Source of the DNA: Boletus sp. NGJ
Lineage: Eukaryota; Basidiomycota; Agaricomycetes; Boletales; Boletaceae
Length of the DNA: 64,000 nt
NCBI GenBank assembly: GCA_019096195.1
Contig: JAGTXK010000134.1
Location: forward strand, 434,001-498,000
Reading direction: 5' to 3'
Below are positions 36,386 through 57,690 of this stretch, in pieces; the stretch's first letter is position 1, and each line of letters opens with the position of its first letter. The notes under the pieces are model-generated. The model saw nothing but the letters and a program-made list of their open reading frames with translations. It was not told where the DNA came from and did no database searches. The translations under genes and the position numbers were made by a program.

Positions 36386-37268
36386 TTGTTATTCCAACCC
36401 AAGATTGCCACTGTTATGTTCCGACCTTTGCCTCGAAACGCCATTCGAACATGACCGTCTCCTAACATTATTGTACACTTCTTCTGCCTGCTCCCTTCTT
36501 CATTTCCCAGCATCGGTAGTTCGTTTCCCCTATCACCGTCTACGACCGTCACCAGTATTATTATCTCCGCTTATTATTTCGTACACATTAGGTTCCTTCA
36601 TAGTGCTTTTTTGCGTTGTAACATCCATCTTTGCTCGTCCTCGTGTGGTTATTAGCAGTCCCCGACTCCCACGGTAGTGGGGGAGGGTTTTCTCAGCCAG
36701 AAATGTCCGGCCCTCTGCAAAGTGACTCGTGGGAATAATTAGATCATGTGAAAAAATTATCTAATTACTATACAGTTCCACTTATTATATTAATGTCATC
36801 GAAAATTGAAAATCATTCAGTTCATACCAATTGGCTGGTTCTGCCAAAATGTGAGTGAGAGCGATAGTCTCAATGTCCTTGACTTTGATTTATTGACTCA
36901 ACTTCATTGACAAGGCACCCTTTATTGTTACATGTGTTGTTAAAGACAGTATTTGTCCTCCTAGTGGTCCCCATGATGTTAAAGACTCCCCTTTATTATA
37001 TATTTTCTACATGCATCAGTAAATTTACACTGATCTTATTTGTGGCTCAAATGGTCTTATGTGCTAAGTGATTTGGGAAAGACAGTGAAGCTGAAAAGAC
37101 TGGTTAGACAAACCATAAAACATCAGGAAAAAAAGGAAAGTCTATGTGGTTCAATGTAGTCTATGTATCAATGATAGTCACTGTTGTCTTCCCCCTTCTA
37201 CTTAGTACCATATAGCATACCCAAACACTACCATAGTACATGGTAGTCATGGTAGTATCAAGGACCTA
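36386..37268. other. Boundary of gene block: AT-rich, CpG-poor repeat DNA
   Basis: After about 36,720 base composition changes abruptly to AT-rich DNA almost free of CpG. No coding frame or known element was identified up to the Tc1 insertion. It is probably the remains of an old transposon. Confidence 0.4.
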
Positions 37269-38867
37269 CAGTGGCTCAAAAAAGTGTCCCAATGTTTGGC
37301 TATTTTGCAAAGACTTGACATTTGCAAACGAACCAAAAGGTATTAGCCCTAACCCTTGCTGGGCCATTGATAGCCCTAATCCTTGCCCTGAAGATGAGCC
37401 CTTAGTCATATAATTTGGTTGTCATGGCACTGAGATATAGCCATATTAAAGTGACATGTCATTGGGACACTTTTTTGAGCAACATTTCTATTCTTCAATT
37501 TAGTACTTTGTATGCCCTCCCTTTGCTTTTATCACTGCCTCTAGTCTTCTAGGCATACTCTCTATCAATCCTTGACACTCCTCAACCTCTATCTTCCCCC
37601 ACTCCACTTCAATTCTCTCCCAAAGCTCCCATACTCCTTTTGGTGGTGTTGTATAGCTATTGAGTTTTTTTTTGAGGATTTGCCAGAGATGTTCAATGGG
37701 ATTAAGGTCTGGAGATTGTGCTGGCCAGTCAAGAAGCTTGATCCCTTGAGATTCCAGCCACTCCTTGGCTCTTTTAGAGGTGTGCTTGGGGTCATTATCT
37801 TGTTGAAAGATAATGCTCTCTTCAGGAATTCCAGAATTTTCCATGGAAGGAAGCAGATTATCCTCCAAAATGGAGACATACTGCTCAGCATTCATCCTCC
37901 CTTCAACCTCTGCAAGAATCCCCACTCCACTCCAACTCATGCATCCCCAAACCATCAAGGAACCTCCTCCAAACTTTACTGTTCCCTGAACTTCCTTGTC
38001 TTGCAAAGACTTTCCTGCCAATTTCCATACATACTTCCTTCCATCTGACCCAATCCTGTTGATCTTGGTTTTATCTGACCATATAACCCTAGTCCAGTCC
38101 TCCACAGTCCAATGTTGGTGCTTGAGAGCAAAGGCTAGCCTATGTTGCCTATGCTTCACAGACAAGAGTGGCTTCTTTTTCTTGACTACAGCCTTGAGAG
38201 ATGCAGACTTGAGAACATTCCTAACAGTTTGAGCAGAGACAGGAGAAGAGAGAGCAGAATTGATGAGATGGGTAGCCTGGACAGCATTTTCAACTTTGCC
38301 AGAGGTAATACTAGAGACAATTCTCCTTTTATCAGTAGGAGAAAGTTTGGAAGGACATCCTAATTTGATGTTTTCCTTGCCTGGGTGGATCTCCTTGATA
38401 ACCCTGGCCACAGTAGACTTCCCCAGACCAGTTTGGAATGATATTTGCCTAGTAGAAAGGCCAGATTCAGAGAGAAAAAGAATATTGGCTCTAGCAGAGG
38501 AGGGAGTGGATTTCATAATGAAGTAGGGTTGGCTGAATGGTATCTCTGCTCTTTATACCATTTGGAGTTATGTAAGTGACATAATCAGACAGGGTTGAAG
38601 CACAGCATCCATCAGAACCTTATGTTATTTACTAAATGATAGTTGATAATATCAGAGTCAAATAAGTGTCCCAATGACATATCCTTTTAATATGGCTATA
38701 ACTCAGTACCATGACAACCAACTCACATGACTAAGGGCTCATCTTCAGGGCAAGGATTAGGGCTATCAATGGCCCAGCAAGGGTTAGGGCTAATGCCTTT
38801 TGGTTCTTTTGCAAATGTCAAGTCTTTGCAAAATAGCCAAACATTGGGACACTTTTTTGAGCCACTG
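37269..38867 (-). mobile_element. Complete Tc1-like transposon
   Basis: A 1,599 bp element flanked by the TA duplication (37,267-37,268 and 38,868-38,869). Long terminal inverted repeats of about 200 bp begin CAGTGGCTCAAAAAAGTGTC and end with its complement GAGCCACTG. Within each terminal repeat the motif CTCAAAAAAGTGTCCCAATG recurs in inverted orientation at the inner end (left about 37,452-37,475; the right inner copy is shorter, near 38,665). This gives palindromic ends that may be paired transposase-binding sites. It holds a single open transposase gene and no visible defect, so it looks young and perhaps active. Confidence 0.93.
37500..38516 (-). CDS. Tc1-like transposase, DD34E, intact
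   Basis: Uninterrupted 338-residue frame, the usual Tc1 length. The N-terminal paired-type helix-turn-helix is SGLSTRQISFQTGLGKSTVA with RVI; a second DNA-binding half follows (GCPSKLSPTDKRRIVSSI). The catalytic triad is visible: Asp in VIWSDKTKIN (about residue 150), Asp in IIFQQDNDPKH, and Glu in SPDLNPIEHLW. Exactly 34 residues lie between the second Asp and the Glu. GGGSLMVWGCMSWSGVG is the conserved glycine-rich loop. It performs cut-and-paste transposition at TA sites. There are no introns. Confidence 0.95.
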   Translation of the reverse strand: MKSTPSSARANILFLSESGLSTRQISFQTGLGKSTVARVIKEIHPGKENIKLGCPSKLSPTDKRRIVSSITSGKVENAVQATHLINSALSSPVSAQTVRNVLKSASLKAVVKKKKPLLSVKHRQHRLAFALKHQHWTVEDWTRVIWSDKTKINRIGSDGRKYVWKLAGKSLQDKEVQGTVKFGGGSLMVWGCMSWSGVGILAEVEGRMNAEQYVSILEDNLLPSMENSGIPEESIIFQQDNDPKHTSKRAKEWLESQGIKLLDWPAQSPDLNPIEHLWQILKKKLNSYTTPPKGVWELWERIEVEWGKIEVEECQGLIESMPRRLEAVIKAKGGHTKY

Positions 38868-39017
38868 TATGACACTATGAACACTATGAAATGCTATGGT
38901 ACTATGATACTATGATACTATGATACTATGGACACTATGAATATACTATGGACACTATGAATACTATGAGTTATCTATGAAACACTATGGTACTATGAGT
39001 ACTATGAAACTACTATG
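38868..39017. repeat. Degenerate ACTATGA-type simple repeat
   Basis: About 150 bp of irregular (ACTATGA/ATACTATG)n sequence lies between the Tc1 element and Gypsy copy A. It was the target into which both inserted or against which they came to lie. Confidence 0.75.
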
Positions 39018-39587
39018 TGTTAAGAATGGACAACTCCGATGCAACTCCGAAGGACCGGAGTTACTTGAGGGTGTCGGGACTTGGCTTCACCTTATGTGGT
39101 GCACCCTTGCTCGAGTCCGATGTCCCGGATTTCAAAGACATAGGAGGATCAGAGGTTTGGACTTGACATAGTCGAATGTCAAGTCGAGTAGAGGGTCAGA
39201 GTGAGTCGTCGAGACTTGGACGGGAGACAGGACGAGTGTTCAGAGTTGATATTCAAACTGACTTTACAGGAGTAGTACTGAGGATTTATATACGATTGGA
39301 ACAAAGGTATTAGTAACAGAGTTCGTAAGGTGTAATGAGTAACAGGACAGAGATGGGACCTTGCCAGAGCAGTGCTCCTAAGTGAGACAGACACTGGGTC
39401 AGAGACAACTATAAGGTGGGACTAGGACGGATGAAGAAGCATAGGTTATGTACGAAAGAAGAAGTATAAATACTATAGTGAGGGTGTTACAAGTCTAAGG
39501 GTATGAGGATGTACTCCGAGGGAGAATGCGCTGGAGTTATGGACAGAGTGCTGGAGTTGGACTTGTCGAATTACACAGGATATGACA
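39018..39587 (-). repeat. LTR of Gypsy copy A (pol-side)
   Basis: A 570 bp terminal repeat, TGTTAAGAATGG...GGATATGACA on the plus strand. Its partner at 45,726-46,295 has the same length. A TTTATATACGAT box lies inside on the plus strand. Confidence 0.92.
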
Positions 39588-39742
39588 GTATCCCCCTCTT
39601 AGGCCTGAACCCCTGAAGGCCTAGGCGAGAGACAATGTGGAGTGGGGAAAATTGGAGTGGAGGAAAAAATCGGAGTCTGAAAAAAGGATATAAAGGGCGA
39701 GGGTGTGCCCTGGTCAATTCTGCATTACCCTTAATCCCTACC

Positions 39743-40536
39743 ATGTCCGACCTTGACAACATCAAGGAGTGGTCCGACGAGCACATTGCGGAGAACGAGG
39801 ATGATGATGATGAGGTCAGTATGGCCAAGTATGCCGAACGGCGGAGACGAGCGCAGGTCCAGAAAGAGGAGGCGGAGAGGAGGGCACGTGAGGAGGCTGA
39901 GTGGAAGGTGCATGAGGAGGAAGAGAAGGCGCACCGTGAGGCCAAGGAGGAGGCCGTATGCAGGGTGAGTCATTCTAACTGGAGTTTGACAAAACTAACC
40001 GGACTTCACAGGCAGAGGAGGTTAGGGCATGTCAAAGCGTCAAACAGGGGAAGAAGAGGGAGGCAGCGGAGCAGTTGTGCGTCCGCTGTGACAACCAGGG
40101 CCTCGAGTGTGTGCTCGGCCCCGGGAAGTCTAAGTCATGCATCGAGTGTCACGACATGAAAGCAAAGTGCGAGCGGACTGGCAAGGAGCAGCCAGAGAAG
40201 CGGAAAAAGAAGCAGAGGGTGGAGACTGGCGAGGCAGGGCCTAGTGGCTCCAACAGAGGGGAGTCGGGGTCCGGGGGGATAGAGGGGCTTTCAGAGATCC
40301 TTCAGGAGATCCGAGAGGCCCTCAAGACCCAAAACAGGCATCTGGAGTGGCAGAACATGCTGCTTAGGCACCTGGTGGATCTAAAGGCAGAGGAGGTGTA
40401 TGGGAGCGAGGAGTCGGAGGAGATAGAGGATGGGGAGGAGTCAGAAGTGGAAGCGGAGTTGGCCGGATTGGCTGCGGAGGTAATCAAGGAGAATGGGGAG
40501 GAGAGCGAAGAGGAGGAAGTAGAGGAAGAAGTCTAG
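39743..40536 (+). CDS. Antisense accessory gene of Gypsy copy A: Zn2Cys6-like coiled-coil protein
   Basis: Lies between pol and the LTR, on the strand opposite to gag-pol. Two exons, 39,743-39,964 and 40,012-40,536, join in phase across a 47 bp intron (GTGAGT...TTCACAG), giving 248 residues. The N-terminus MSDLDNIKEWSDEHIAENED is followed by a charged helix (residues about 30-75). The central cysteines in LCVRCDNQGLEC and SCIECHDMKAKCE follow C-x2-C-x6-C-x9-C-x2-C-x6-C, the spacing of fungal Zn2Cys6 DNA-binding clusters. A basic segment (KRKKKQRVE) and a leucine-rich helix (EILQEIREALKTQNRHLEW) come next, as in Gal4-type factors, and the end is very acidic. The frame is open from start to stop. 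Copy B carries the same gene. DNA binding is inference from spacing only. Confidence 0.75.
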
Positions 40537-40599
40537 TAGTAGTTCTTAGATTTACTTGTCTTTTTTCTTCATCCAATGGAGTTTGTGTCCGGTCATGCA

Positions 40600-43500
40600 G
40601 AGTGAGGTCTGGGTTTGTCTGGGTAGCGAGTGTGATAGTCCGCAGACAAGTTCGGAAGCATGGCTGAGTTCAGTGGCTAGAAGCCAGGACGTCTCTTTGT
40701 CTGTTCCTTCGTATCCTGACCAACAAACGAGGTACAGGAGTTTGCAGTTCCGGCAACGTCAGTCTATCTTCGAGTCGAGGATCTCTGAAACTTCATACTC
40801 TGGTTCTCCATCTACTTCAACCGGAGGTGGCAGAGATTGTACCCGGTTAGGTATTGTGTTGGGTATGGAGGGTTCTAATTGTGAGACATGAAAGACTGGG
40901 TGAATGGACTTCATAGACTCGGGGAGTTGAAGAGTGAAGGAGTGGGAGCCTGCCTGAGCGATGATTGGATAGGGCCCTAGGTTCTTCTCAGAGAGTTTCT
41001 TTGAAGGCCTAGTGGAGCGGAAGTACTTGGCTTTCATGAAGACTGGGTCACCAACTTTGAAGTCCAGTGCCAGAGATCGCCTAGCATCTGCGGGTCCTTG
41101 GTAACACTTTTGGGTGGCAGCCATCTCTTCATGGAGGTATTCATGGAGGGAATCGAGGTTGATGGAGTATTCATGGGCTTTAGCAGAGGTGAGGTTGCGC
41201 TCGGGATGTACTGTAACATTGAGATGATAGCCTTTATTGGCGAAGAACGGGAAGGCACCAGTAGTAGCACTCAGAGCATTGTTGTATGTGAACTCTGCTA
41301 ACAGGAGGAGTTCAGACCAGTTGTCTTGCTGGTAGTTGCAATACACGCGAAGGTACTGTTTGAGCATCTGGTTCATCCGTTCTGTCTGACCGTCTCCTTT
41401 GGGATATGATAACCGGAGGTAAAGTGGAGGCGGATGTCGAGAGCTTTCCCAAGCGAGCGGAAGAAGTGGGAGACGAATTCCGAACCTCGATCGGAGGTGA
41501 TGTGAGAGGGAACTCCGTGCTTAGAAAAGACATGGAGTAGGAATAGTTTTGCCAAGTCTGGGGATGTTACCGTGTCATACGTCGGGATGAAAATGCACTG
41601 TTTGGATAATTGGTCTACCACGACGAGGATAGCGGTAAATCCGGAGGACGAGGGGAGTTGCTCAATGAAATCCATAGTGATGGAATTCCACGGCTTCTCC
41701 GGGATGGGGAGTTGTTTCAACAACCCGTAGGGTCGGTGTCTTGGAACCTTTGCGCGGGCGCAAGTGGTGCAGGAGGAGACGTATTCTTTGATGAACGTCC
41801 TTATCCTTGGCCAGGTGTATTCGTGGCGTACAAGTTCCAATGTCCGATTTTGGCCGAAATGTCCGGAGAGGGGATGGTCGTGTTTGTACCGGAGGACTCG
41901 GAGTCGGAGGTCATTGGCATCGGGGACATAGATGCGCTTGTCGAGACGGAGGAAGCTGTCTTCGTCGACTGACCAGTGTGAGTCCGGATCGGGAGGTGGA
42001 CATGTGGAGTTCGGCGAGTGGGTCGGAGGGGAGTGCGGATAGGATGTCGCTGTGGAGTTGCTCTATATCAAGCAGGGTGCTAGCCTGGAGTACCGGAGCT
42101 GCAAGATAAGTAGCGCGGAGGGAAGAAGCGAGCTGTTCCTGTGTAAAGATGGGGCGGAAATTATGCGGATTGACGCGAGCGTAGTCCTTATCCCCCTCTT
42201 TGGGATAGACGTCCCAGTGTCTAGTGAGGGCATCAGGTTTCACGCCAAGTCGTCCAGGGCGAAAGCGGACGATCATGTGGAATTGGGAGAGGAACTCCAA
42301 CCACCGGGCTTGCCGGCAGGTCAGGAGTTTCGAAGTGGCGAAGTACTCCAGGTTCTTGTGGTCGGTGACGACGTCGATTGGGGTGCCGGAGCCTTCGAGA
42401 TAGTGCCTCCAAGCCTGGAAAGACTCGTGGATGGCGAGGAGCTCCTTATCATGAGTGTCGTAGTTGAGCTCTGGAGCGGTGAGCGTCCGTGAAAAGAAGG
42501 CGACGGGCCGGAGTTCTTCATCCGGACAACGGATGGAAAGAATCCCGGTGTTGGCGTAGTTGGAGGCGTCGGTTTCTATGATCATCGGAGCATCGGGAGC
42601 CCAATGGGTAAGGATGGGAGCGGTGGTGAAGGCTTCCTTTAGCGAAAGGAAGGCGGATCGACAGTCGTCTCCGAAGACCCAAGGAATACCCTTGCGGGTC
42701 AACCAGGTTAGTGGAATGACGATGTCGGAGTAGTTGGCGATGAAACGCCGGTAGAAGTTGGCAAATCCGAGGAAGGATTGGATGTCCTTGACTTTATGAG
42801 GTTCCGGCCAGTCCTGCACGGCTTTGACTTTGTCCGAAGACATTGTAAGGCCGGAGGGAGTGATGATGTAGCCGAGGTACTCCGTAGTGTCGGTGGACCA
42901 TTCACATTTCTCGGGTTTTGCGTACAGGCCATGTTTGCGGAGTTGTCGGAGGACTTCCTGGACATGTTCTCTGTGAGCGGTTTTATCCGCGGAGAAGATC
43001 AGGATGTCGTCCAGGTTGACGATCACGCTAACATCTAAAAGATCTGCAAAAACGGTGTTGACAAACCGTTGGAAAGCTGCGGGGGCGTTGGTAAGGCCGA
43101 ACGGCATTACCAGCCACTCATAGGAGCCATAGCTCGTGTTCGGAAAGACGTTTTCCATCCGTCTCCGTCGGCAATGCGGACCAAGTGATAGGCATGCCGG
43201 AGATCGATCTTGGTGTAAATCTTAGCGTGGCTCGGAGCGTCTAGGAGGTCGGAGATACTGGGGAGTGGGTAGCGGTCTTTCTTTGTGATCTTGTTAAGTC
43301 CTCGGAAGTCGACGCAAAGGCGGAGTGAACCGTCCTTCTTGCGGATGAAGAGGACTGGGGCAGATGGTGTGGGCAGAGGAAGAGGGTCTGATGAAGCCCA
43401 TGGCTAGGTGCTCATCGAGGAAAGCACGGAGAGAGCCGAGTTTGGAGGTGGAAAGGGAGTAGGTGGTTCCCAAGGGAGGAGAGGCTCCTTCCTCCAGGTC

Positions 43501-45690
43501 GATCTTCAGATCGTGTTCCCGGTGTGGAGCAAGCTGGGAAGCTTTGCTCTTGCTGAAAACATCCGGGAAGTTGTGATATTCCGGAGGAACGCCGGAAAGA
43601 TCGACTGGTTCTGGGGGAGTGATGGAAGCGGAGCGGAGATCGCTCTCCTGGGGACGGAGTTGCAAGCTGAATTGGACGGAGCCCTCAAGGCGACAAGCTA
43701 GTGTGAATGCTGGTGCACTAACGAGCGCGATGGGCGGAGCTTTGCGGTCAGAGAAACGCGGTGGATCGGGTGGGGTGTCAGCCGGAGGAAGGGATTCCGG
43801 AGGCTGCGGAGGGGAGCTCAGGGTTGCTGGCAAATGCTGCTCGGATGAACGGAACGTGATACTGCTCGTGACCCAGTCAATCAACGGATTGTGGCGGGTG
43901 AGCCAGTTATGTCCTAGAACAATGGAACAGGTGGAGTCCAGCGGAGTGACGTAGAAAGTCATCGGGGTGATGTCACCGGTTGTGAAGCAGACTGAGAGGT
44001 TGGTGGCTCGGGTGATCGTGCTATTGGTAGTTCCGTCGAAGAGACGGAGTTGGAGCGGAGGGATGGGGTAGGTTGAAAGTTCATTTTTGTTTACGAAAGT
44101 AGTATCTATGAAACAATCGGAGGAGCCCGAATCTACGAGCGTGGAAAAGGGCGGAATTGGGTAGGAGACTAAGGAGACGGAGGGCATGAGGGATTTGGGG
44201 TCGGAAAGAGCGGACATGTTGAGGCGAATCTCCTTAGCTGCACATGTGGGTTCAACGCAACCTCCAGTCTGTGCGGAGTCATGGAGGTCGCGGATTATTT
44301 TTTTGCCTCCAAGGTGGAGACCTCCGGTTTGGTTTCCGGAGTTGTGGTCGCGGCGCAACCCTTGGATGCGCTGGAGGTCGACTTTGGACAGTCCTTTGCC
44401 ATGTGACCTTGCCATGTGACTGGCTTGGCCACAGAACATGCAGAGCTTGTTGTCGAACCTGCACTTTCTTTCATCCGAAGTGAGCTTGCCGTCTTTCCCT
44501 AATTTGGACGACAAGTCCGGCTTCGGATGGGCGGAGGTGGTAGCTCCTTTGCCTTTGGACTCCTTGGAGTCCTTGGCGCTACCAGAGGGGCGCGGAGAGG
44601 ATGATGCGGTGGGGGTGGATGGTTTCGGGGCGGAGGATGGGGTCGACGCTTTAGTCTGCCTGCTAACTTCCGACTTGCGCTCCCAATAGCGTGCATCGAT
44701 GGCGTGTGCGAGGCTTCGGAGTTTGGAGAGTGTCGGGGGTTTCCCAACCCGCGATATCTCATCCTTGATGCGGTCCGGCAGACCGTTATAGAAGTGGTGT
44801 CGGAGGGCACCTTCTCCGTAACCATGCAGACTTGCGAAGCGATCCGGTTGAACTCGACCACGTACTTGTTGATGTGTTGGGTATCCTTCATCGACAAGTG
44901 GTCGAGCTGGTGCTCTGCATCTCTGACGGGGTCGTGCGGACCGAAGTTGGTCTGGAGCTCTAGGACGAACTCTTTAAAGTCATCCATTCAGAGCGGATGG
45001 AAAGTGGGATCTTCCATCTGGAGGAGATCCGGTTCAAACCACTCCAGAGCCATGCCCTTTAGGTAGGACTGTGCAAAGGTGACTTTGGCACGGTCCGTCC
45101 TGAAAGCCTTTGGGCGGTCTTGGAAGTTAAGTTCACACTGAACCAGAAAGACCTAGAGTTTGCGGGGCTCAGTCCCATCAAACTGGTCTGGTTACCGGAC
45201 CTTAGTGCATGAAGTGTGGTTGGAGGGACGACACGTGGAGCGAGTGAGGCCTTTGATGGCATTGGTGAGCAGTGTGAGAGTGTCTCGTGGGACATGCTTG
45301 TTGTTGGAGTCTGAGGGAGCATCATCATTGGGGAAGTCAGGATCATCATCTGATGGGTCATCTCCAGGGAAGTCCAGGATGTCATTGTTTGGGAAGAGGG
45401 CAGCCTGCACTCATTGACTCAAGTGTCAGCTTGTGAGCGGGGAGGTGGTGGTGGAGTCATCAGTGGGTAACTCGACAATGCGCACTCCTGGAGTAGGGGA
45501 CTCCGGGAGTGGTCATGACTGAGAGGTGGAGGTAGGAGTTCATTGAGTGGAGAAACTTTGGAACTGGTTGACGAGTTCTGGGCCTCGCCAACTGCTGCCG
45601 AATGCGCTCAACATGTTGTAATGTGGGAATGTGGAGGGGTTTGCGCTGATGGTGCAAGTCTGGGATCTAGTAGTATGTGTAGCCATATTG
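40600..45690 (-). pseudogene. Gag-pol region of Gypsy copy A (fossil)
   Basis: Parts recognised on the minus strand: the gag core (LELQTNFGPHDPVRDAEHQL), a CCHC knuckle (CMFCGQASHMARSHG), the protease motif LVDSGSSDCFIDT, reverse transcriptase ([20 protein letters not shown] and the catalytic LDDIL), RNase H (IIETDASNYA; HDKELLAIHESFQ), integrase (zinc-binding HHCC region, then ITMDFIEQLP and ITSDRGSEFVS) and a C-terminal HPVFHVSQLEPS block as in chromovirus integrases. The region is broken in several places and is treated as a fossil. Confidence 0.88.
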
Positions 45691-45725
45691 TGAGAGACTC
45701 GTTGCAAGTGGGAGTTTGAATATAC

Positions 45726-46295
45726 TGTTAAGAACGGACAACTCTGATGCAACTCCGAAGGACCGGAGTTACTTGAGGGTGTCAGGACTTGGCTTCACCT
45801 TATGTGGTGCACCCTTGCTCGAGTCCGATGTCCCGGATTTCGAGGACGTAGGAGGATCAGAGGTTTGGACTCGATGTAGTCGAACGTCAAGTCGAGCAGA
45901 GGGTTGGAGTGAGTCGTCGAGACTCGGACGGGAGACAGGAGGAGTGTTCAGAGTTGATATTCGAACTGACTTTACAGGAGTAGTACTGAGGGTTTATATA
46001 CGATCGGAACGAAGGTATTAGTAACAGAGTTCGTAAGGTGTAATGAGTAACAGGACAGAGATGGGACCTCGCCAGAGCAGTGCTCCTAAGCGAGACAGAC
46101 ACTGGGTCAGAGACAACTATAAGGCAGGACCAGGATGGATGAAGAAGCATAGGTTATGTACAAAAGGAGAAGTATGAATACTATAGTGAGGGTGTTACAA
46201 GTCTGAGGGTATGAGGACGTACTCCGAGGGAGAACATGCCGGAGTTATGGACAGAGTGCCGGAGTTGGACTTGTCGAATTACACGGGATATGACA
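45726..46295 (-). repeat. LTR of Gypsy copy A (gag-side)
   Basis: A 570 bp repeat matching 39,018-39,587. The gag start lies almost directly inside it, so in sense orientation the leader between LTR and gag is very short. Confidence 0.92.
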
Positions 46296-46458: not shown

Positions 46459-47023
46459 TGTTATGAACAGACAACTCTGATGCAACTCTGATGAACTGGA
46501 GTTACTTAAGGGTATTGGAACTTGGCTTTATCTTATGTGGTGCACCCTTGCTCAAGTCCAATGTCCTGGATTTTGAGGACATAGGAGGATCAGAGATATG
46601 GACTCGACATGGTCAAATATCAAGTTGAGCAGAGGTTAGAGTGAGTTGTTAAGACTTGGACAGAGGACAGAAGTGATGTTCAGAGTTGATTTTTGAACTG
46701 ATTCTACAGGAGTACCGAGGGTTTATATATGATTGGAATCGAGATTACTAACAGAGTTCATAAGGTATAATGAGTAAAAGTAGCTGAGTAAAGAGAACAG
46801 AGATGAGACCTGGCCAGAGTGGTGCTCCTAAGCGAGACAGACACTGGTTTGAAGACAGCTATGAAGTGGAGCTAGGACAGATCAGAAAGCATAGGTTTAA
46901 GTATGAATGAAGAAGTATGAATACTATATAGGGAGGGTATGAGAGTGTGCTCCAGAGGAGAATGTGCTGGAGTTATGGACAGAGTGCTAGAGTTGGACTT
47001 GTCAAATTACACAGGATATGACA
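46459..47023. repeat. LTR of Gypsy copy B (left)
   Basis: A 565 bp repeat starting TGTTATGAACAG and ending GGATATGACA, clearly homologous to the copy A LTR but CpG-depleted, with TG or CA at most positions where A has CG. Confidence 0.9.
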
Positions 47024-47160
47024 GTATCCCCCTCTTAGGCCTGAACCCCTGAAGGCCTAGGTGAGAGACAATGCAGAGTGGAGGAAAATTGGAGTTCGAA
47101 AAAAGGTATAAAGGGTGAGGGTGTGTTCTGGCCAATTTCACATACCCTTTACTTCTCACC

Positions 47161-47825
47161 ATGTCTGACCTTGATGACATCAAGGAATGGTCTGACGAGT
47201 GCATTGTGAAGAATGAGGATGATGACAAAGAGGTTAGTGTGGCCAAGTACACCAAACACAGGCCTGGAAAGAGGAGGTGGAGAGGAGGGCATGTGAGAAG
47301 GAAGAGAAGGTGTGTTGTGAGGCCGAGGAGGAGGCTGTACGCAGGGTGAGTCGTTTTAACCAGAGTTTGTCAGAACTAACTGGACTTTCACAGGCAAAGG
47401 AGATTAGGGTGCATCAAAGCATCAAATAAGGGAAGAAGAGGGAGGTGGCAGAGCAACTGTGCTCCTGCTGCAACAACCAGGGTCTTGAGTGCATGCTTGG
47501 CCCTGGGAAGTCAAGATTGTGCGTCAAGTGTTGTGATGTGAAGGTGAAGTGTGAGTGGCCTGGCAAGGAGCAGCCAGAGAAGTGGAGGAAACAGAGAAAG
47601 GTAGGAGGGGACAAGGCAGGGCCCAGTAGCTCCAATGGAGGGGAAGCTGAGTCTAGGAAGATGGAGGGGCTCTTGGAGATCCTTTGGGAGATCTGAGATG
47701 CCTTGAAGTTACAAAACAGGTGGCTCGACCGGCAGAATTCTCTGCTGGAGCACCTGGTGGAACTGAAAGTAGAGGAGGTGCATGGAAGTGAGGAGGAGGA
47801 GGAGGTAGAAGAAGGGGAGGAGAAG
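47161..47825 (+). pseudogene. Accessory Zn2Cys6-like gene of Gypsy copy B (fossil)
   Basis: Counterpart of the antisense gene of copy A. The start MSDLDDIKEWSDECIVKNED, the following intron, and all six cysteines (CSCCNNQGLEC, then LCVKCCDVKVKC) are recognisable with the same spacing. The leucine-rich helix follows and the acidic end runs into pol sequence. It is broken. Shared presence in both copies shows the gene is a standing part of this element family. Confidence 0.75.
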
Positions 47826-47829
47826 TTCC

Positions 47830-48664
47830 CCTGTATCTCTGACCTCCTGGATGCTCTGAGCCACACGAAGATATATACCAAAATTGATCTCCAGCATGCC
47901 TACCACCTGGTCCATATTGCCAATGGAGACAAATGGGAAACTTCCTTCCAAATGCACTATGGCTCCTATGAGTGGCTGGTAATGCCTTTCAGCCTTATCA
48001 ACACCCCTGCAGCTTTCCAACAGTTTGTCAATACTGTATTTGCAGATCTTCTAGATGTTAGTGTGACTGTCTACCTGGACAACATTCTGATCTTCTCCAC
48101 AGATAAAACCACTCATAGAGAACATGTCCAGGAAGTCCTCTGTCAACTCCGCAAACATGGCCTTTACACAAAACCCAAGAAGTGCAAATGGTCCACCAAC
48201 ACTACAGAGTACCTTGGCTACATTATCACACCCTCCAGTTTTACTATGTCTTTGGACAAAGTCAAGGCTGTGCAGGACTGGCTGGAACCTCATAAAGTCA
48301 AGGACATTCAGTCTTTCCTTGGATTTGCTAAATTCTACCAGTGTTTTATCACCAACTATTCTGATATCATCATTCTGCTAATCTGGTTGATCTGCAAAGG
48401 TATTCCTTGGGTCTTTGGAGATAACTGTCGATCTGCCTTTCTTTTGCTAAAGGAAGCCTTCATCACTGCTCCCATTCTTACCCATTGGGCTCCCGATGCT
48501 CCAATGATTATAGAAACCAACACCTCTGACTATGCCATCGCCGGGATTCTCTCTATCTGCTGTCCAGTTGAAGAACTCCAGCCCATCGCCTTCTTTTCAT
48601 GGACGCTCACTGCTCTAGAGCTCAATTACGACATACATGACAAGGAGCTCCTTGCCATCCATGA
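47830..48664 (+). pseudogene. Reverse transcriptase / RNase H part of copy B (fossil)
   Basis: Shows the RT palm region ([20 protein letters not shown]), the catalytic LDNIL in place of LDDIL, the RT thumb (HKVKDIQSFLGFAKF) and the start of RNase H (PMIIETNTSDYAIAGIL). It stops at the hAT insertion. On the plus strand, opposite to the gag of the same copy. Confidence 0.85.
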
Positions 48665-48672
48665 GTCTTTAC

Positions 48673-51600
48673 TAGTGTTCTAAAGTCCAGTCCAGTCCGG
48701 TCCTTTTGGTGACCACAATGTGTTGGGACCAGACCAGGACTGATAAGGACCAGTCCTGTGTGGTCTTAGCTAGAGAAAGGACCGGTCCCCAAATGAAAAA
48801 CTGCCCTCAAGTAGATGATTTATTCCTGCAAAACAGCAACAATATTAATGCAGCATGCCCCAAACCACAGCTTACAACATGTATCATGCATGGAATGGAG
48901 TATATAAGTCTATCCACCATAGCTCAATGCCTGTATTGTAAAACTACCATCTACCATATCCACCAAAAGTAGCCCAACATCCGTGCACCATCATACCCAT
49001 AAGTCTTGTGTCATTTTCTTCCTGCCGCGCATCTGCCATCATTTGGCAATGTCAGAAACACGGAAATCAACCCGACAGAGAGTTCCCACTGCGAAGGTCC
49101 AAGAAAACACTGGTCAGCCAAGAAAAAACAGTATGCACTCTTGACCGCCCAAGTCAAAAGCAGTGCTTCCCCACAATGCGAAATCCAAGAAAAGAAAATA
49201 CATGTCAAGCACGAGCGAGATGGAATCAACAGACAACGGAAGCGAGAGCTCCCTTGAGGCTGAGCAATCAGACAAGCACCCCAATGCTCATTCAGCTCGC
49301 TCGAGGAAACAACAAAGAAAGGAGAAAAGACACAAACACAAGAGTATATCGTCAGTCGAGGTGCAGATAGACTTGACCATGGAGCTGGAGATGGTCACGG
49401 ACAGGGCTAGTAGCCCACCTGGGCACAAGTTTGAGATGGTCGACAGTGAGGTATGTAATTGCCTGCTGTAACATCAGTTAGCATGTCTAATATAGAAAAG
49501 GACGACCTCGAAGAAAGACATCGCACCTCTGAGGCGGTCATACATGTAGTCAAGAAAGACAGCACGAAGGACTTACTTACTATCTTCTCCAACACTACCA
49601 AAGTCACATTCGTGTGTGCAAATGATGAGACAGAAACCAAGATGGAAACCCTGACGGGTCACTGGTGTACCATATGCAAGTGAATACACACAAACTAATG
49701 CGTGCATGTTGTGAACTCACCGACAATCATTGAAAGGAATGATGAGAAACTCGTACAGAAACACAGTAGACGTAAAGCCTTCTTCACTGGCGGTAATTCC
49801 ACATGTCGACGACACATCCGAATCCACTACGAATTGTATAAGAAACGTTGTGCAGAAAAAGATATCCTTGAAAATCACCTTGCTATACCACCAAAAGTTT
49901 TGGAAGCCCAGAAAGCAAAGGGAAAGAGTGGCCAGCAAAGTATTTCTGGAATGTTGATGAAGAGGGTAGAGCGAACCTTCTCATGGACAGAGGTGTTGAA
50001 GGCTGTTGCAGAGTTTGTCGTTTGTGATGACCACATGGGTGAAAGACAATGTGGCTCAGAACACGAGCTAACCATGAGGCGGATAGTCGCTTGCAGTTGT
50101 TGATAAGGCGTTGTTCAGGAATAGCCTTGTGGCGATGCGACCAAAGTCTACCAACGCTGACTTGCCATCAGGACACAATGTCAAGACGTTCATTCACAAT
50201 GCGTTCACGGCCTTTCTCAAGCAGCTCAAAGAGGAGCTAGCGGTAAGTCAACCCAATCATCTTTTTCTCTCTCATTGACTGGCTTTTGTGTAAGTTAAAT
50301 GTTGCCGGTCGTATCTCAACCACGATGGACCTTTGGTCAGTCGATCAGACGAAGGCTGCTTTCCTCGGCATTACAGCACACTGGATCAATGGTATGATTG
50401 GGTTGAACTCAGAACCGTCGAAATGGACTCTACGCTCCGAAGTCATTGCATTCCATGGAATTGTTGGAGCACACACCGGTGACAACATTGGCCACTACTT
50501 TGTAGGTCTTTGTGAGCAAGTCAGAATCATTTTGAAGGGGTCAAGCAAGGTGCGTGTACAAGCCCTTTTGATATTATGTTGTTTCAACTGAACCATCTCA
50601 CCCTAGCTACTTTGTATCACTGCCAACAATGCTAGTAACAATGATGCCATGTGTGACAAAATTGAGCAAGTCCTCCACTGACGCAATGTATTTTCATTCG
50701 ACCCCACATACCACCGTCTACCGTGTCTCGCCCATGTTGTTAATCTATCTATTGTCGCCATCATGTCTACTATAACAAGAATTTCAAGCGTGGAGACTAC
50801 AGCTAGTATCTGGGAGTTTGATCCTGATCTCACTGGTAACCGCATTCTCGAAGACTCTCTGGATGCCATTGCTGCAGTCCACACATTGGCTGTCAAGGTA
50901 CATTCTTATCCTTATTTTTACTGCTTTTGCTGACTTCGAATGTCCTTATTGTACAGATACAATGTTCGACTCAATGGCTCGAGTACTTCAAGTCGCTTCA
51001 AGCCAAATATGGCATCATCCTGCCACTCAAGATCCCCCTCCATAGCAACGTGCGTTGGGGCACAGCTGACACCATGTTGGCGTGGTCATACAGCCTTCGC
51101 CAACCCATCAACCTGTTCATCAAGTCCGCAGATGAACTATTTGGCCCAATCATGACAATTCGGCGGAACAGCCATGTGGAGAAGCGCATCCTGTGGACTG
51201 CCTTCTTACTCGGAGCTTGTAACTGGGAGATTATCAATGACACACACGCAATCATTTCCGAAGCAAACAAGATTCAGCAATACTTTTCATCCGAGCAACA
51301 CATGACTCTTTGGTGCGCAATCCCTGTGCTTGAGGAGCTACAGAGCGCATGGGAGTCGAAGAGAGCTGACGCAAAGTACAAACGGTATCATGCCGCCATC
51401 AATAGTGGTCTCACAAAGATTGGAAAATACTACGCGAAGCTTGATGAGAAGCCGGTGTATATCTTAGCCCTTGGTATGTTTATTCTACGTGTATTCTAAC
51501 ATTCACTAACGATCATTAGTCCTACACCCTTACTACAAATTACATTACATCGAAATGGCATGGGGAGGAGTAAATGAGCAAGAAGAAGAATGTGCAAAGG

Positions 51601-52458
51601 GAAACATGCATGCCAAAAACTGGTATGACGAAGCGCTGCAAGTCGTCGAGAATACCCTTCGAGAGTATTGGGAAGAAACACAGGCTAAGACGCCATTCAA
51701 GCCCACTTCAGTGTCATCGCAGCCCAAACCCAACACTATGCTAGAGTCCGAATTTGATCGTCACCAACGTGAGTTGATTGAAAAGGCCCAGCAAGAGAAT
51801 AATCAATCGATCGGATGGGCTGCCGAGCTACACCAATATCTCACAATCATTGACAATGTCACAAAGGAGACAGATGTGGTCGAGTGGTGGGCGGTGAGTT
51901 TCTTGGTCCCTTTGCTATCACATAGTAATGTCAACGATATGAACCACACAGTGACATATCCAACTCTTGCACGTGTTGCCAAGGATATCTCTGCCATTCC
52001 TGCATCTTCAGTACCATGTGAACGATTGTTTTTGGCAGGTGCAGAGATTGCGACTGACCATTGTTCCCACCTGGGATCAGAGAGATTCGAAGAACTACAA
52101 ATACTTAAGCATTCCTGACACCATTCTATCTTTGATTGTGCACATGCCAACACATGCAATGTCGAAGAGGTTATATTGCAAGATTTCAAGGAGCTACATG
52201 ATCTGGACAAGGAGGCAGGGGGTCATGATAAGGACATTGAGTTGGTTGATACTTAGACTATGCTATGTTGTGTATGTCATATGAGGACTGGTCCGGACTG
52301 GTCTGTATCGGTCCTCACGTCTGATGAGAAATCATAGGACTGGGACCGCAATTTTTTGAAATGAGCAAGGACTGGGACTGCGGTCCGGTCCTAAATTGGT
52401 CCAGTCCAGTCCAGTCCCTGGTCCTTGACTGGTCCTGGGACTGGTCCTTCAAACACTA
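48673..52458 (+). mobile_element. hAT DNA transposon inserted in Gypsy copy B
   Basis: A 3,786 bp element flanked by the perfect 8 bp duplication GTCTTTAC (48,665-48,672 and 52,459-52,466), the hallmark of hAT. Ends are TAGTGTT...AACACTA. Both subterminal regions (about 48,680-48,790 and 52,285-52,450) are crowded with GGACTGG/CCAGTCC/GGTCC repeats, probable transposase-binding sites. It carries one transposase gene. It inserted into the RNase H part of the retroelement, so it is younger than copy B. Confidence 0.95.
49163..52256 (+). pseudogene. hAT transposase with two in-frame stops
   Basis: Multi-exon transposase. N-terminal basic/acidic lead (MLPHNAKSKKRKYMSS); BED-like zinc finger (GHWCTICK, then GGNSTCRRHIRIHYELYKKRC); RNase-H-like core with ISTTMDLWSVDQTKAAFLGI (catalytic Asp), RLPCLAHVVNLSIV and the block beginning LKIPLHSNVRWGTADTML; C-terminal dimerisation domain beginning YPTLARVAKDISAIPASSVP followed by CERLFLAGAEI. 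Introns of 45-60 bp fit, for example 50,038-50,097 and 51,893-51,952. Two stops interrupt it: TGA at 50,679-50,681, where HRRNVF is expected, and TGA at 52,116-52,118, where KHSW is expected. The frame then stays open to TAG at 52,254-52,256. Both stops are single-transition changes. The exon 1 to exon 2 joint near 49,450 is unclear. Confidence 0.88.
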
Positions 52459-52466
52459 GTCTTTAC

Positions 52467-52745
52467 AGACTTGGTGACATCATCTCAAAGGCTCCAGCAC
52501 TCCAATCAACATCGTTACCAACCACAAGAACTTGAAGTACTTCACTACCTCAAAACTCCTGACCTGCTGGCAAGCCCAGTGGTCGGAGTTCCTCTTCCAA
52601 TTCCATATGATTGTCCACTTTTGCCCTAGATGACTTGGCATGAAACCTGATGCCCTTACTAGATGCTGGGATGTCTATCCCAAAGAGGGGGATAAGAACT
52701 ATGCTTGCATCAATCTGCACAATTTCTACCCCATCTTTAAACAGG
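52467..52745 (+). pseudogene. RNase H / linker part of copy B (fossil)
   Basis: Continues the retroelement past the hAT. The TDHKNLEYF-like region appears as NHKNLKYFTT, and the sequence runs toward the integrase before the solo LTR. Confidence 0.75.
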
Positions 52746-52749
52746 AATA

Positions 52750-53693
52750 GTGTTATGGTTATAGAAGGGGGTACATCTTTTTCTCTCCCTTCTTCCTCCT
52801 CCTGGACTCTGGGACGACCTATTCTTTGATGCCTCCAACTACCCGGGATTCCCCCGCAATGCCCACACAAGCACCACCCCATCTCGGAACTCCCTTTCTG
52901 AGTGATGCACCGCCATGGCTGTGACACAGCCCTCTCTATTTCACCTCCTATGTATTTCACCTCTGATACAATCATAGACATTGCCTCCTCAGCTGTGCTC
53001 TCTTGCATACTCAGCCCAGTATTCCACCTTCCTTATTTGACCCATGACATGATCCTTTCTGGTAATACTTACGATTACCATATACGATACAAAGCCTGCC
53101 CTGAATAGGGAAGGCCTATTTATACAGGCGTCCGCCCTTCATGTAAATCCCAACCTAGATCTACACTACTTCCTGTGTAATCTACCAGCTCTCCCAGCTC
53201 TCGGTTCCACTTCACCTCAGAAGCCTGCGCCCACTCTGGAGGTGATCACCACAGTGCTTGTGATCGTCCTTCTCATCACTTCGCACTTGTGTGGCCTCGT
53301 CGCCATGTTCGCTCGCGTTACTAGCCTATGGCAACTCCAACGCCAACAGAGGTTGGCCTATGTAAGCCCAGAACTCTGCCACTGGCAGCATAGTAAATCC
53401 AGGACTCTGCCACTGGCACCCGTATTGGTCAGGACTCCACCACTGACCCCCATATAGGATAGGTCTGCCCTTCCTTTCGGATTGCGCCACCATCCTCAAA
53501 GTCCGAGACTCCGACATCAGTCATAGAGTAACAGCTCCAACCCCAAGGAAGGCTTTATGTTAAAGCTAGCTGTCAGTCCCTAGTCCAAGGAACCTTTGGG
53601 CCTTGGGAGGTATTTTCCCCTCAAGTCCGGCTAGTCCAGTAATCACACAGGGTTGATTACTCAGGAATGTGTCACTTGTTACACGGTGTAACA
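52750..53693 (+). repeat. Solo LTR (family 2) inside Gypsy copy B
   Basis: 944 bp starting TGTTATGGTTATAG and ending ACACGGTGTAACA, flanked by AATAG (52,745-52,749) and AACAG (53,694-53,698), a 5 bp duplication with one transition. A TATTTATACAGG box near 53,111 suggests plus orientation. The same family occurs in inverted orientation at 61,698-62,670. It is richer in CpG than its host element, in line with a later arrival. Confidence 0.88.
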
Positions 53694-53698
53694 AACAG

Positions 53699-55260
53699 CT
53701 CGCTTCTTCTCTCTGCACTACTTATCTTGCAGCCCCAGTACTTCAGGCTAGCACCCTGTTTGATGTAGAGCAACTCCACAGTGACATCCTATCCACACTC
53801 CCCTCCAACCCACTCACCAAACTACACATGTCCTCCTCCGATCTAGACTCACGCTGGTCAGTCAATAAAAACAGCTTCCTCTGTCTCAACAAATGCATCT
53901 ACATCTCTGATGCTAATGACCTCCATCTCCAAGTCCTCTGGTACAAACACAACCATCCCCTCTCTGAACATTTCAGCCAAAATCAGACATTGGAACTTGT
54001 ATGCTGCAAATACACTTGGCCAAAGATATGGATGTTCATCAAAGAATATGTCTCCTCCTGCACCACTTGCGCCCATACAAAGATCCCAAGACACCAACCC
54101 TACAGATTGTTGAAACAACTCCCCATTCCCGAGAAGCTGTGAAACTCCATCTCTATGGATTTCATTGAGAAACTCGCCTTGTCCTTCAGATTCACCACCA
54201 TCCTTGTTGTCATGGATCAATTATCCAAACAGTGCATTTTCATCCTGACATACGACACAGTAACTTCCCCGGACTTGGCAAGACTCTTCCTACTCCATGT
54301 CTTTTCTAAGCACGGAGTTCCCTCTCACATTACCTCCGATCAAGGTTCGGAATTTGTCTCACACTTCTTCTGCTCACTTGGGAAAGCTCTCAACATCCGC
54401 CTCCACTTTACCTCTGGCTATCATTCCAAAGGAGACGGTCAGACAGAATGTATGAACCAGACACTCGAACAGTACCTCCACATATATTGCAATTACCAGT
54501 AAGACAACTAGTCCAAACTCCTTCCATTAGCGGAGTTCACATACATACAACAATGCTCCGAGTGCTACTACCAGTGTCTCCCCATTCTTTGCCAATAAAG
54601 GCTACCATCCCAATGTCACAGTACACCCTGAGTGCAACCTCACCTCTGCCAAAAGCCCAGGAATATTCTGTAGACCTCAATTCCCTCCACAATTACCTCT
54701 GTGAAGAGATAGCTGCCATCCAAAAGCATTATCAAGGACCCACAGATGCTAGGCGATCTCTGGCACCAGACTTCAAAGTTGGTGATTTGGTCTTCATAAA
54801 AGCCAAGTACTTCCACTCCACTAGGCCTTCAGAAAAACTCTCTGAGAAGAACCTAGGGTCCTACCCAATTATTGCTCAGGCAGGCTTCTACTTCTTCACT
54901 CTCTGACTCCCTGAGTTAATGAAATCCATTCACCTGGTCTTTCATGTCTCACAACTAGAACCCTCCGTATCCAACACCATACCTAATTGGGTACAATCTT
55001 CGCCATCTCTGGTTGAAGTAGACGGAGAACCAGAATATGAAGTTTCAAAGGTTCTCAACTCAAAAATAGACTGATGTTGCCAAAACTGCAAACTCCTGTA
55101 CCTCATCCAGTGGTTGGGATACAAAGAAACAGACAAAGAAACCTCCTGGCTTCTAGCCACCAAACTCAGCCATGCTTCTGAACTTGTCCATGACTATCAC
55201 ACTCACTATCTGGACAAGCCTGGACCTCACTCCACATGACCAGAAACAAACTCCATTTAA
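53699..55260 (+). pseudogene. Integrase and C-terminal part of copy B (fossil)
   Basis: Recognisable pieces: zinc-binding region ending SSCTTCAHTKIPRHQPY, catalytic core with SMDFIEKLALS and HITSDQGSEFVSHFF, linker with ARRSLAPDFKVGDLVFIKAK, and the C-terminal block with FHVSQLEPS and a chromodomain-like stretch. Broken. Confidence 0.82.
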
Positions 55261-55279
55261 GAAGGGGAAAAAAGAAAAA

Positions 55280-57690
55280 GACAAGTAATCTACTATACTA
55301 CTTCTTCCTCTTCCTCTTCTTCTCCCTCTTCTTCTCCCTCCTCTCCATTTTCCTTGATTACCTCTGCAGCCAATCTGGCCAACTCCGACTCCACCTGAGT
55401 GGGTAGCAGTCCTTCTTTGTGATCTTATTGAATCCTTGGAAGTTGACACAAAGGCAGAGTGAACTGTCCTTCTTACAAATGAAGAGGACTGGGGCAGTGT
55501 GGGTGGAGGAAGAGGGTTGGATGAAGCTCATGGCTAGGTGTTCATCAAGGAAGGTACAAAGAGAGCTGAGTTTGGAGATGGACAGGGAGTAGGTAGTTCC
55601 CAAGGGATGAGAGGCTCCTTCCTCCAGATTGATCTTCAGATTATATTCCCGGTGTGAAGCAAGCTAGGAAGCCTTGCTCTTGCTGAAAACATTGGGGAAA
55701 TCATGGTACTCCGGAAGAATACTGGAAAGGTCGACTGGTTCTGGGGGAGTGGTGGAAGGGAGCAGAGATTGCTCTCCTGGGGACAGAGTTGCAAGCTAAA
55801 TTGAACAGAGCCCTCAAGGCAACAAGCTAGAGCAAATGCTAGGGCACTAATGAGCGTGATGGGCAGAGTTTTGCAGCCAGAGAAATGTGGTGGATCAGGT
55901 GTGGTGTCAGCCGGAGAAAGGGATTCCAGAGGCTGCAGAGGGGAGCTCAGAGTTGCTGGCAAATATGACTTGGATGAATAGAATGTGATACTGCTCATGA
56001 CCTAGTCAATCAACAGATTGTGGTGGATGAGCCAGTTATATTCTAGTACAATAGAACAGGCAGAGTCCAGTGGAGTGACATAGAAAATTGTCAGGGTGGT
56101 GTCACTGGTTGTGAAGTGGACTGAGAGATTAATGGCTTGGGTGATCATACTGTTGGTAGTTTCATTGAAGAGATGGAGCTGGAGTGGAGAGACAGGATAG
56201 GTTGAAAGTTTATTTTTATTAATGAATGAAGTATCTATGAAACAGTCAAAGAAGCCTGAATCTATGAGCATGGAAAAGGATGGAATTTGATAGGAGACTA
56301 GGGAGACAGAGGGCATGAGGGATTTGGGGTCAGAAAGAGCAGACATGTTGAGGTGAATCTCCTTAGCTGCACATGTGGGTTCAACATGACTTCCAGTCTG
56401 TGCAGAGTCATGGAGGTCATGGATTATTTTTTTGCCTCCAAGATGGAGATCTCTGGTTTGATTTCCAGAGTTGTGGTCACTGTGCAACCCTTGGATGCAC
56501 TGGAGGTTGACTTCGGGCAATCCTTTGCCATGTGACCAGCTTGGCCATTGAACATGCAAAGCTTGTTATTGAACCTGTGCTTTCTCTCATCTGAGGTGAG
56601 CTTGCTGTCTTTTCCTAACTTGGACAACAAGTCCAGCTTCGGATGGGCAGAGATGCTCCTTTGCCTTTGGACTCCTTGGAGTCCTTGGCACTACTGGAGG
56701 GGTGCAGAGAGGATGATGCAGTGGAGGTGGATGGTTTGGGGGCAGAGGATGGGGTCAACACTTTTGTCTGCCTGCTGACTTCCAACTTGCACTCCCAATA
56801 GCACACGTCAATAGCCTGTGCAAGGCTTCAGAGTTCAGAGAGCATCAGGGGTTTCCCAACACACAATAACTCATCCTTGATATGGTCTGGCGACTGTTAT
56901 AGAAGTGGTGCTGGAGGGCACCTTCTCTGTAACCGCAGATTTGCAAAGCGATCCGGTTAAACTTGACCACATATTTGTTTATGTGTTGAGTGTCCTTCAT
57001 CAACAAGTGGTCAAGTTGGTGCTCTGCATCTCCAACAGGGTTGTGTGGACTGAAATTGGTCTGAGGCTCTAGGATGAACTCCTTGAAGTTGTCCATCCAG
57101 AGAGGACGGAAGGTGGGATCTTCCATCTGAAGAAGGTCTGGTTTGAACCATTCCAGTGTCATGCCCTTTAGGTAGGACTGCGTGAAGGTAACTTTGGTGT
57201 GGTCCATCCTGAAAGCCTTCAGGCAGTCTTGGAAGTTGAGTTTGCACTGCACCAGGAAGACCTGGAGTTTGTGGGGCTCTGTCCTGTCAAACTGGTCTGG
57301 TTCCCAGACTTTAGTGCATGATGTGTGGTTAGAGGGATGATGTATGAAGTGAGTGAGGCCTTTGATGGCATCGCTGAGCAGTGCAGTGTCTTGTGGGATG
57401 TGCTCATTGTTGGAGTCTGAGGGAACATTGTCATTGGGGAAGTCGGAATCATCATCCAACAGGTCATCTCCAGGAATATCCAGGATGTCGCTAGAGTGTT
57501 GGCTTGTGAGTGGGGAGGTGGTGGAGTCATTATCAGTGGGTAACTTGACGATGTGCACTCCTGGAGTAGGGGACTCCAGGAGTGGTCATAACTGTGAGGT
57601 GGAGGTGGGGGTTCATTGAGCAGAGAAGCTTTAGAACTGGTTGACAAGTTCTGGACCTTGCCGACTGCTGCTGAATGTGCTCAACAGATT
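55280..57690 (-). pseudogene. Protease-gag part of copy B (fossil)
   Basis: On the minus strand: the end of the accessory gene near 55,300-55,390, the pre-RT segment (MGTTYSLSISKLSSLCTFLD), a protease region (MLIDSGFFDCFIDT in place of LVDSGSSDCFIDT), a knuckle (CMFNGQAGHMAKDCPK) and gag (LEPQTNFSPHNPVGDAEHQL). Orientation is opposite to the pol pieces of the same copy. Broken. Confidence 0.82.

Follow-up and report, generated by a model that had tools for sequence, protein, structure and literature searches.

Can an LTR retrotransposon of a bolete carry a genuine protein gene on the strand opposite to gag-pol, and what could such a gene contribute to the element? The question is raised by a stretch of 64,000 nucleotides from Boletus sp. 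NGJ, analysed at its full length and hereafter called the window. A preliminary description had reported an intron-containing gene for a protein with six clustered cysteines, lying antisense to gag-pol in an element that is present in two copies, A and B.

The retrotransposon copies and their surroundings

Copy A is a Ty3/gypsy LTR retrotransposon on the minus strand of positions 39018 to 46295, with the domain order PR-RT-RNaseH-INT and LTRs with TG...CA ends. Self-BLAST placed the 3' LTR at 39018 to 39587 (-; TGTCATATCC...TTAACA read on the minus strand) and the 5' LTR at 45726 to 46295 (-); the two are 93.7% identical and differ at 36 of 570 positions. Transitions account for 35 of the 36 differences and CpG for 21, which suggests that cytosine methylation and decay are behind this bias. 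The likely polypurine tract AAGAGGGGG (39592 to 39600, -), assigned from its position adjoining the 3' LTR, is identical in copy B. A search of copy A for a self-priming PBS found no complement of 9 to 13 nt to the 5' LTR, and Rfam and tRNA searches gave no match within the window.

The gag-pol frame of copy A is broken into several minus-strand ORFs. Domain matches identified a split gag frame with a Retrotrans_gag match (44499 to 44987), the C-terminal part of gag (recognised by eye) together with the protease frame (RVP_2; 43294 to 44973), reverse transcriptase and RNase H (41911 to 43221), integrase H2C2 and core (41373 to 42062), and the C-terminal part of the integrase (SH3_Tf2-1; 40759 to 41520). 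The final part of pol (40648 to 40797, -) has a chromodomain match that is weak and read through one in-frame stop, with a score of 21.4 bits compared to the cut-off of 25.1 of Pfam Chromo; the stop ahead of it has the same place in copies A and B.

Copy B (46459 to 58348) is bounded by LTRs at 46459 to 47023 (-) and 57793 to 58348 (-), 91.7% identical in self-BLAST. It contains an internal inversion of a segment equal to positions 40441 to 43263 of copy A and two inserts, the first at about 48671 to 52453 with a hAT dimerisation match (51510 to 52118) and the second at about 52751 to 53693; one member of a repeat pair in inverted orientation (52746 to 53695 and 61696 to 62675, 80% alike) lies within the copy. 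The 5-nt flanks do not match as a target duplication in copy A (CTATG/AGCCC) and nearly match in copy B (AAACA/AGACA), imperfections for which recombination or decay is suggested.

Other features of the window include an element at 37267 to 38869, which we take to be of the Tc1/mariner type, with a 350-aa open frame (37500 to 38552, -; DDE_3 and HTH_Tnp_Tc3_2) and flanking 212-nt inverted repeats that are 95% alike. There are also an imperfect tandem array with spacings of 43, 87, and 130 nt (5806 to 6795), a tandem pair of MBOAT_2 genes that are 74% alike on the DNA level (19411 to 22470), and a DUF6532 match below threshold (22.0 bits; cut-off, 24).

An intron-containing gene convergent with pol

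The previously described gene was confirmed: antisense to gag-pol, it lies between the 3' LTR and pol of copy A and has an ATG at 39743, two exons in phase, an intron of 47 nt, and a frame that is open throughout and encodes 248 aa. Exon 1 (39743 to 39964, +) comprises 74 codons, has an acidic start, is rich in E/R, and ends in phase 0. The intron (39965 to 40011, +) reads GTGAGT...CTAAC...CACAG, with the same splice signals in copy B, and exon 2 (40012 to 40536, +) includes the stop codon. A TATAAAG box (39689 to 39695, +) lies outside the LTR, separated from the ATG by 47 nt, and may serve as the promoter; its block TATAAAGGG[C/T]GAGGGTGTG is kept in copy B, where it starts at 47107. Copies A and B match at 115 of 137 aligned positions between the LTR and the ATG.

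Eleven intron-like patterns of this kind, the introns of A and B among them, occur in the window, compared to a mean of 1.7 in 20 simulations. In the gag-pol direction its ends in copy A are CT...AC, so that on that strand it is not a GT-AG intron. The claim that such an antisense intron cannot be spliced out of the genomic RNA was hence upheld: because the packaged RNA carries this intron in reverse, it survives retrotransposition, and both copies retain it.

The pol frame stops at 40759 to 40761 and, if continued, at 40552 to 40554 and 40546 to 40548. Since the antisense gene stops nearby at 40536, the two genes are convergent, tail to tail. The distance of 10 to 16 nt to the later pol-frame stops means that transcripts with 3' UTRs would overlap, and the antisense RNA itself could then be the functional product, with convergent transcription yielding dsRNA that restricts copy number or enters silencing and with the protein being incidental, an option raised in part of PMC7264820; pol, however, already has its stop at 40759, before those at 40546 to 40554. 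This option is weakened by the frame-continuing placement of the intron, which is not expected if RNA alone matters; the codon-level evidence given below bears on it further.

Protein architecture and the zinc-cluster question

The predicted protein is composed, in this order, of an acidic start, an E/R-rich stretch, a cysteine domain, KRKKKQR, a G/S-rich linker, a zipper, and an acidic tail. The zinc-cluster-like domain (residues 97 to 127; 40078 to 40170, +), recognised by its pattern, a structural model, and Foldseek, contains six cysteines in the spacing claimed before, C-x2-C-x6-C-x9-C-x2-C-x6-C. The basic stretch KRKKKQR (residues 137 to 143; 40198 to 40218, +) is a possible nuclear localisation signal. 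A leucine zipper L-x6-L-x6-L-x6-L with a predicted helix (residues 171 to 192; 40300 to 40365, +) is followed by the acidic tail, with a net charge of -21 over 45 residues (40399 to 40533, +). The basic stretch, leucine-rich helix, and acidic end of the preliminary description were thus all recovered, the helix being a regular heptad zipper. With stops allowed, the cysteine pattern occurs three times in the window, i.e., in copy A, in copy B, and at a third locus with an internal stop, compared to an average of 0.025 per window over 40 Markov simulations.

Zn2Cys6 clusters have the spacing C-x2-C-x6-C-x(5-16)-C-x2-C-x(6-8)-C, and the six cysteines of A and B agree with the spacing of PF00172. 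The Pfam Zn_clus profile (PF00172) scored 9.6 bits for the whole protein and 14.4 bits for a 63-aa fragment, both under the cut-off of 21, so membership in Zn_clus was not assigned; the halves of A and B, taken as isolated pieces, gave no match. The stretch that separates cysteines 2 and 3 usually contains basic residues in Zn2Cys6 proteins. In both A and B, no K/R stands between the second and third cysteines of the first half and two stand there in the second half, and the start of the Zn_clus profile aligns to the second cysteine half of A. These two features raise the hypothesis that the halves may stand in reverse order relative to those of host zinc-cluster factors. In Zn2Cys6 factors, a linker is followed by a coiled-coil dimerisation helix, a succession found here in the G/S-rich linker, the heptad zipper, and its confidently predicted helix, with a putative role in dimerisation.

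Structure prediction, which had been proposed as a check, was applied to the cysteine region, where a Zn2Cys6 protein would be expected to fold in two halves around two zinc ions. An AlphaFold2 model of the 56-aa cysteine domain, built from three sequences, has a mean pLDDT of 77 to 85 over residues 11 to 40 and two short helices, each beginning directly behind the cysteine that opens its half. All 25 Foldseek matches of this model in the PDB at E values up to 10 are zinc-cluster proteins, although the best match is weak (E 0.15, prob 0.94, TM 0.49) and none reaches 0.001. They comprise Gal4, Pho7, Leu3, Put3, Ppr1, Hap1, the ethanol regulon activator, and 1cld, all of which, judging by titles and by what is known of these proteins, are zinc-cluster DNA-binding domains, 1cld being titled only "DNA-binding protein". 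In a 174-aa model of exon 2, the zipper helix is confident (mean pLDDT of 81 to 90 over exon 2 residues 91 to 130) and the cysteine region is not (38 to 40). Sequence comparison of the whole protein with the PDB gave nothing convincing (27 matches with a best E of 0.14, for the most part to designed ankyrin repeats), and NCBIfam gave only two unrelated matches above E 1. Zn_clus is the sole Pfam match up to E 5, with no bZIP domain. The earlier Zn2Cys6 reading therefore stands with respect to spacing and architecture and falls short with respect to the Pfam score and a basic first half: the evidence supports a predicted Zn2Cys6-like architecture, though not a clean member of Zn_clus.

The basic patch and the zipper could also act after transcription, in that a zipper dimer might bind cDNA or chromatin and aid nuclear import or steer integration, either together with the chromodomain or in its place. 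As the chromodomain match is below the cut-off and behind a stop common to both copies, another chromatin tether could be useful, and nuclear entry and accessory roles of antisense genes are discussed in part of PMC7264820. The acidic tail and the Gal4-like layout fit transcription factors better, and we regard a post-transcriptional role as rather unlikely.

The dead gene of copy B and the question of host use

The antisense gene is present in both copies within the window. In copy B, comparison with A located exon 1 at 47161 to 47345 (+), its frame broken by two gaps, of 13 and 24 nt, relative to A, an intron of 48 nt with the same signals at 47346 to 47393 (+), and the part of exon 2 that precedes the inversion break at 47394 to 47822 (+), with two stops and all six cysteines. 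Because of the internal inversion, the C-terminal tail was relocated to 55311 to 55400 (-), where it shows a 9-nt, in-frame length difference from the tail of A. The gene of copy B retains the TATA-like box, ATG, intron, six cysteines, and zipper, in which the four leucines are the same as in A, as are two asparagines that stand between them in the heptad register, and the alignment of exon 2 is gap-free over 429 nt. It is nevertheless dead owing to the two in-frame stops in exon 2, the frameshift in exon 1, and the loss of its tail by inversion. The statement that copy B has the same gene with all six cysteines was thus correct for the cysteines and not for an intact gene.

The open frame of copy A, standing beside a split gag-pol, had been taken to hint that the gene is under a constraint of its own or was recently put to use by the host. 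At half of the LTR divergence, the frame should have gathered about 23 neutral substitutions after the element inserted, and 44% of 5,000 neutral simulations, with substitutions only, leave the frame of copy A free of stops; its openness is therefore no evidence for host use, and the hint fails. Host domestication of copy A was rejected, as neutral decay suffices. Given also the LTR differences of copy A (36 of 570 positions) and the dead gene of copy B, a take-over of the copy A gene by the host, for which the fully open frame beside the split gag-pol would speak, is highly improbable.

Coding constraint between copies A and B

Differences between A and B were compared with a shuffle null that preserves base and CpG context. 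Over both exons, 69 codons change the residue (83.0 ± 4.2 expected; P = 0.0008), 38 are synonymous (27.2 expected; P = 0.014), and 2 become stops (5.5 expected; P = 0.064). Exon 2 alone has 52 residue-changing (64.8 expected; P = 0.0013) and 29 synonymous codons (18.9 expected; P = 0.010), and all six cysteines survive in only 1.6% of 5,000 shuffles (share, 0.016). The same comparison gave 55 residue-changing codons in RT (67.1 expected; P = 0.002), 46 in INT (54.3 expected; P = 0.013), and 138 in gag-PR (144.0 expected; P = 0.18), and the signal was absent from three plus-strand frames of the LTR. A minus-strand frame, one of the five others that cover exon 2, also had fewer residue changes (P = 0.0047), without an excess of synonymous ones (P = 0.22).

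Exon 1 alone showed no constraint in this test (17 residue-changing codons in 60; 17.5 expected), and protein-level constraint is thus demonstrated for exon 2, with its cysteines and zipper, only; the case for exon 1 is made by its ATG, the open frame, and the splice signals. A minus-strand ORF of 132 aa (39571 to 39969) overlaps exon 1 and the LTR edge, and the matching frame in B is largely open. This competing ORF was set aside because the A-B differences give no constraint (32 residue-changing codons in 111; 32.8 expected; P = 0.46). A neighbouring minus-strand frame over exon 1 and upstream had fewer changes (P = 0.021), again without a synonymous excess (P = 0.22).

The preliminary description had proposed a comparison of dN/dS with pol, which turned out in favour of the gene: NG86 gave dN of 0.204, dS of 0.690, and dN/dS of 0.30 over 203 aligned codons (0.28 once codons changed at CpG are dropped), and five gag-pol segments ranged from 0.23 to 0.56, a comparison of just two copies, one of them with a dead gene, and carried by exon 2, exon 1 alone being free of signal. 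As both copies decayed after insertion, these values probably understate the constraint in living elements. Synonymous divergence of exon 2 is 0.496 of sites, compared to 0.276 for four segments of pol combined (Fisher P = 5e-5, calculated from rounded counts), and fourfold sites are changed at 14 of 32 positions in exon 2 and at 62 of 278 in RT, INT, and INT-C. Exchange between subfamilies is a possible explanation for this high divergence. The most diverged 150-nt blocks between A and B are located at 40068 to 40367 and in one block of the LTR.

The excess of the cysteine pattern over simulations and the codon constraint led us to reject a chance frame, and from the sequence evidence as a whole we consider it likely that the antisense gene is a real protein gene. 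The missing codon-level constraint on exon 1 would suit a function of the antisense RNA itself, whereas the constraint on exon 2 and the retention of the six cysteines are not expected from it, and we judge such an RNA function to be unlikely.

A related domain outside the retrotransposon

The third locus (3597 to 3683, -), outside both elements, is a broken frame with the pattern C-x2-C-x6-C-x7-C-x2-C-x6-C and one in-frame stop. It was found by tblastn within the window (E 8e-5, with composition statistics and filter off) and shares 15 of 58 alignment columns with both A and B, among them those of all six cysteines, of a G that precedes cysteine 3, and of a PG within the loop. A 34-aa piece of it scored 18.3 bits with Zn_clus, under the cut-off of 21, and its second half also aligns to the start of the profile. 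A remnant of a KDZ transposase (1011 to 1313, -; Pfam KDZ 2.5e-16) and an intron-like stretch at 3324 (-) are located nearby, in the region of positions 1 to 4500.

The third locus indicates that the six-cysteine domain also exists outside the retrotransposon; zinc-cluster-like domains with six cysteines are common in mushroom-forming fungi, a kind of host with which the KDZ remnant, the DUF6532 match below threshold, and the style of the introns agree. The domain may accordingly come from another gene or transposon, and the antisense gene could be a captured host gene that travels as a passenger without a role for the element, an antisense intron being what capture would leave. A passenger would decay neutrally, whereas exon 2 is constrained like the integrase, and the gene is found in both copies at a synonymous divergence of 0.69; this origin without function is quite unlikely.

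Scans with exon 2 found no relatives in viral_contigs or genome_contigs, and scans with the RT found none in viral_contigs and three loci in genome_contigs (29 to 40% identity, in records labelled bacteria). The cysteine pattern is absent from the stretches of all three.

Proposed role of the antisense protein

The reading that we favour, at slightly less than an even chance, is that of an element-encoded, spliced, antisense nuclear regulator with a logic like that of HBZ. An antisense transcript would start near 39720 and would be spliced to encode a putatively dimeric nuclear protein that binds DNA or chromatin and may modulate transcription of the element from its LTR and perhaps also of host genes. 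The antisense position would both preserve the intron through retrotransposition and permit expression independent of gag-pol. The sequence basis for a regulator consists of the TATA-like box outside the LTR, the open gene, a well-formed intron, and the convergence with pol, and on the protein side of the six-cysteine domain, basic patch, zipper, acidic tail, and constraint on exon 2. According to parts of PMC7264820 and PMC11963269, some of the known antisense genes in such a position have products that are nuclear or are predicted to bind DNA.

A more far-reaching version, which we find doubtful, would make the protein a Gal4-like master regulator with reversed cysteine halves that binds the LTRs and tunes expression of the element, an independent fungal counterpart of HBZ, and possibly a source or sink of zinc-cluster genes, given the related broken domain near a KDZ transposase in the window. 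As candidate target sites in the LTRs, CGG/CCG triplets were counted in two stretches of each copy, with 13 and 16 in copy A compared to 1 and 2 in copy B; two of these stretches extend 170 nt past the LTR, and the counts are uninformative.

The intron offers a simple RNA test for expression of the antisense gene, and the readable architecture of the gene makes the idea of antisense genes as nuclear regulators directly testable. Zn2Cys6 proteins are a large class of fungal transcription factors, so that mobile elements carrying such domains bear on the spread of the class.

Comparison with known systems

In plants, genes antisense to gag-pol have repeatedly been found in the interval from pol to the 3' LTR, and they also exist in fungi; their roles are called unknown in the parts of PMC7264820 and PMC11963269 considered here. 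The plant elements Grande and Retand harbour an antisense gene in the same position and orientation as copy A, and that of Grande has its own upstream promoter and a nuclear protein (PMC7264820 and PMC11963269, in part). Retand TRP28 is predicted to bind DNA (PMC7264820 and PMC11963269, in part), like the putative DNA-binding domain here, and predicted DNA-binding domains of Retand antisense ORFs are mentioned in part of PMC11963269. Unlike the gene of copy A, those of Grande and Retand are described in these parts of PMC7264820 and PMC11963269 with neither a zinc cluster nor a leucine zipper, and the word "intron" is absent from the main texts of both papers, whereas the gene described here has one.

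Among fungal LTR elements, Boty has a positional counterpart. Its gene brtn was reportedly described by Zhao et al. in 2011, a study known here through citing papers. In Botrytis cinerea and Sclerotinia, brtn is likewise antisense and lies between pol and the 3' LTR (PMC7264820, in part); it is mentioned without its domains in parts of PMC8365987, PMC5987419, and PMC4227169. The parts of PMC3411680 and PMC5408684 considered contain nothing on antisense zinc-cluster genes, and the matches listed for open-licence PMC papers, as judged by title and start of abstract, include no report of an LTR element with a zinc-cluster gene on its antisense strand.

The retroviral genes HBZ of HTLV-1 and APH-2 of HTLV-2 are comparable by analogy only, as spliced antisense transcripts from the 3' side of the element (PMC3185765, in part). 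The nuclear factor HBZ contains both an activation domain and a leucine zipper (PMC3185765, in part). Its transcripts begin within the 3' LTR, whereas the TATA-like box of copy A is located outside, and it is a bZIP factor, whereas the putative DNA-binding part of the protein described here is a cysteine cluster.

Gal4, Leu3, Put3, and Ppr1 (PF00172) resemble the protein in cysteine spacing, predicted fold (weakly), the succession of linker and zipper, and an acidic region. It differs from fungal Zn2Cys6 factors in its score below the Pfam cut-off, in the basic residues of the second half, and in being encoded by a retrotransposon. The antisense gene of copy A is an accessory gene of the positional class represented by Grande, Retand, and brtn of Boty, with an architecture of which the matches listed for open-licence PMC papers gave no other example.
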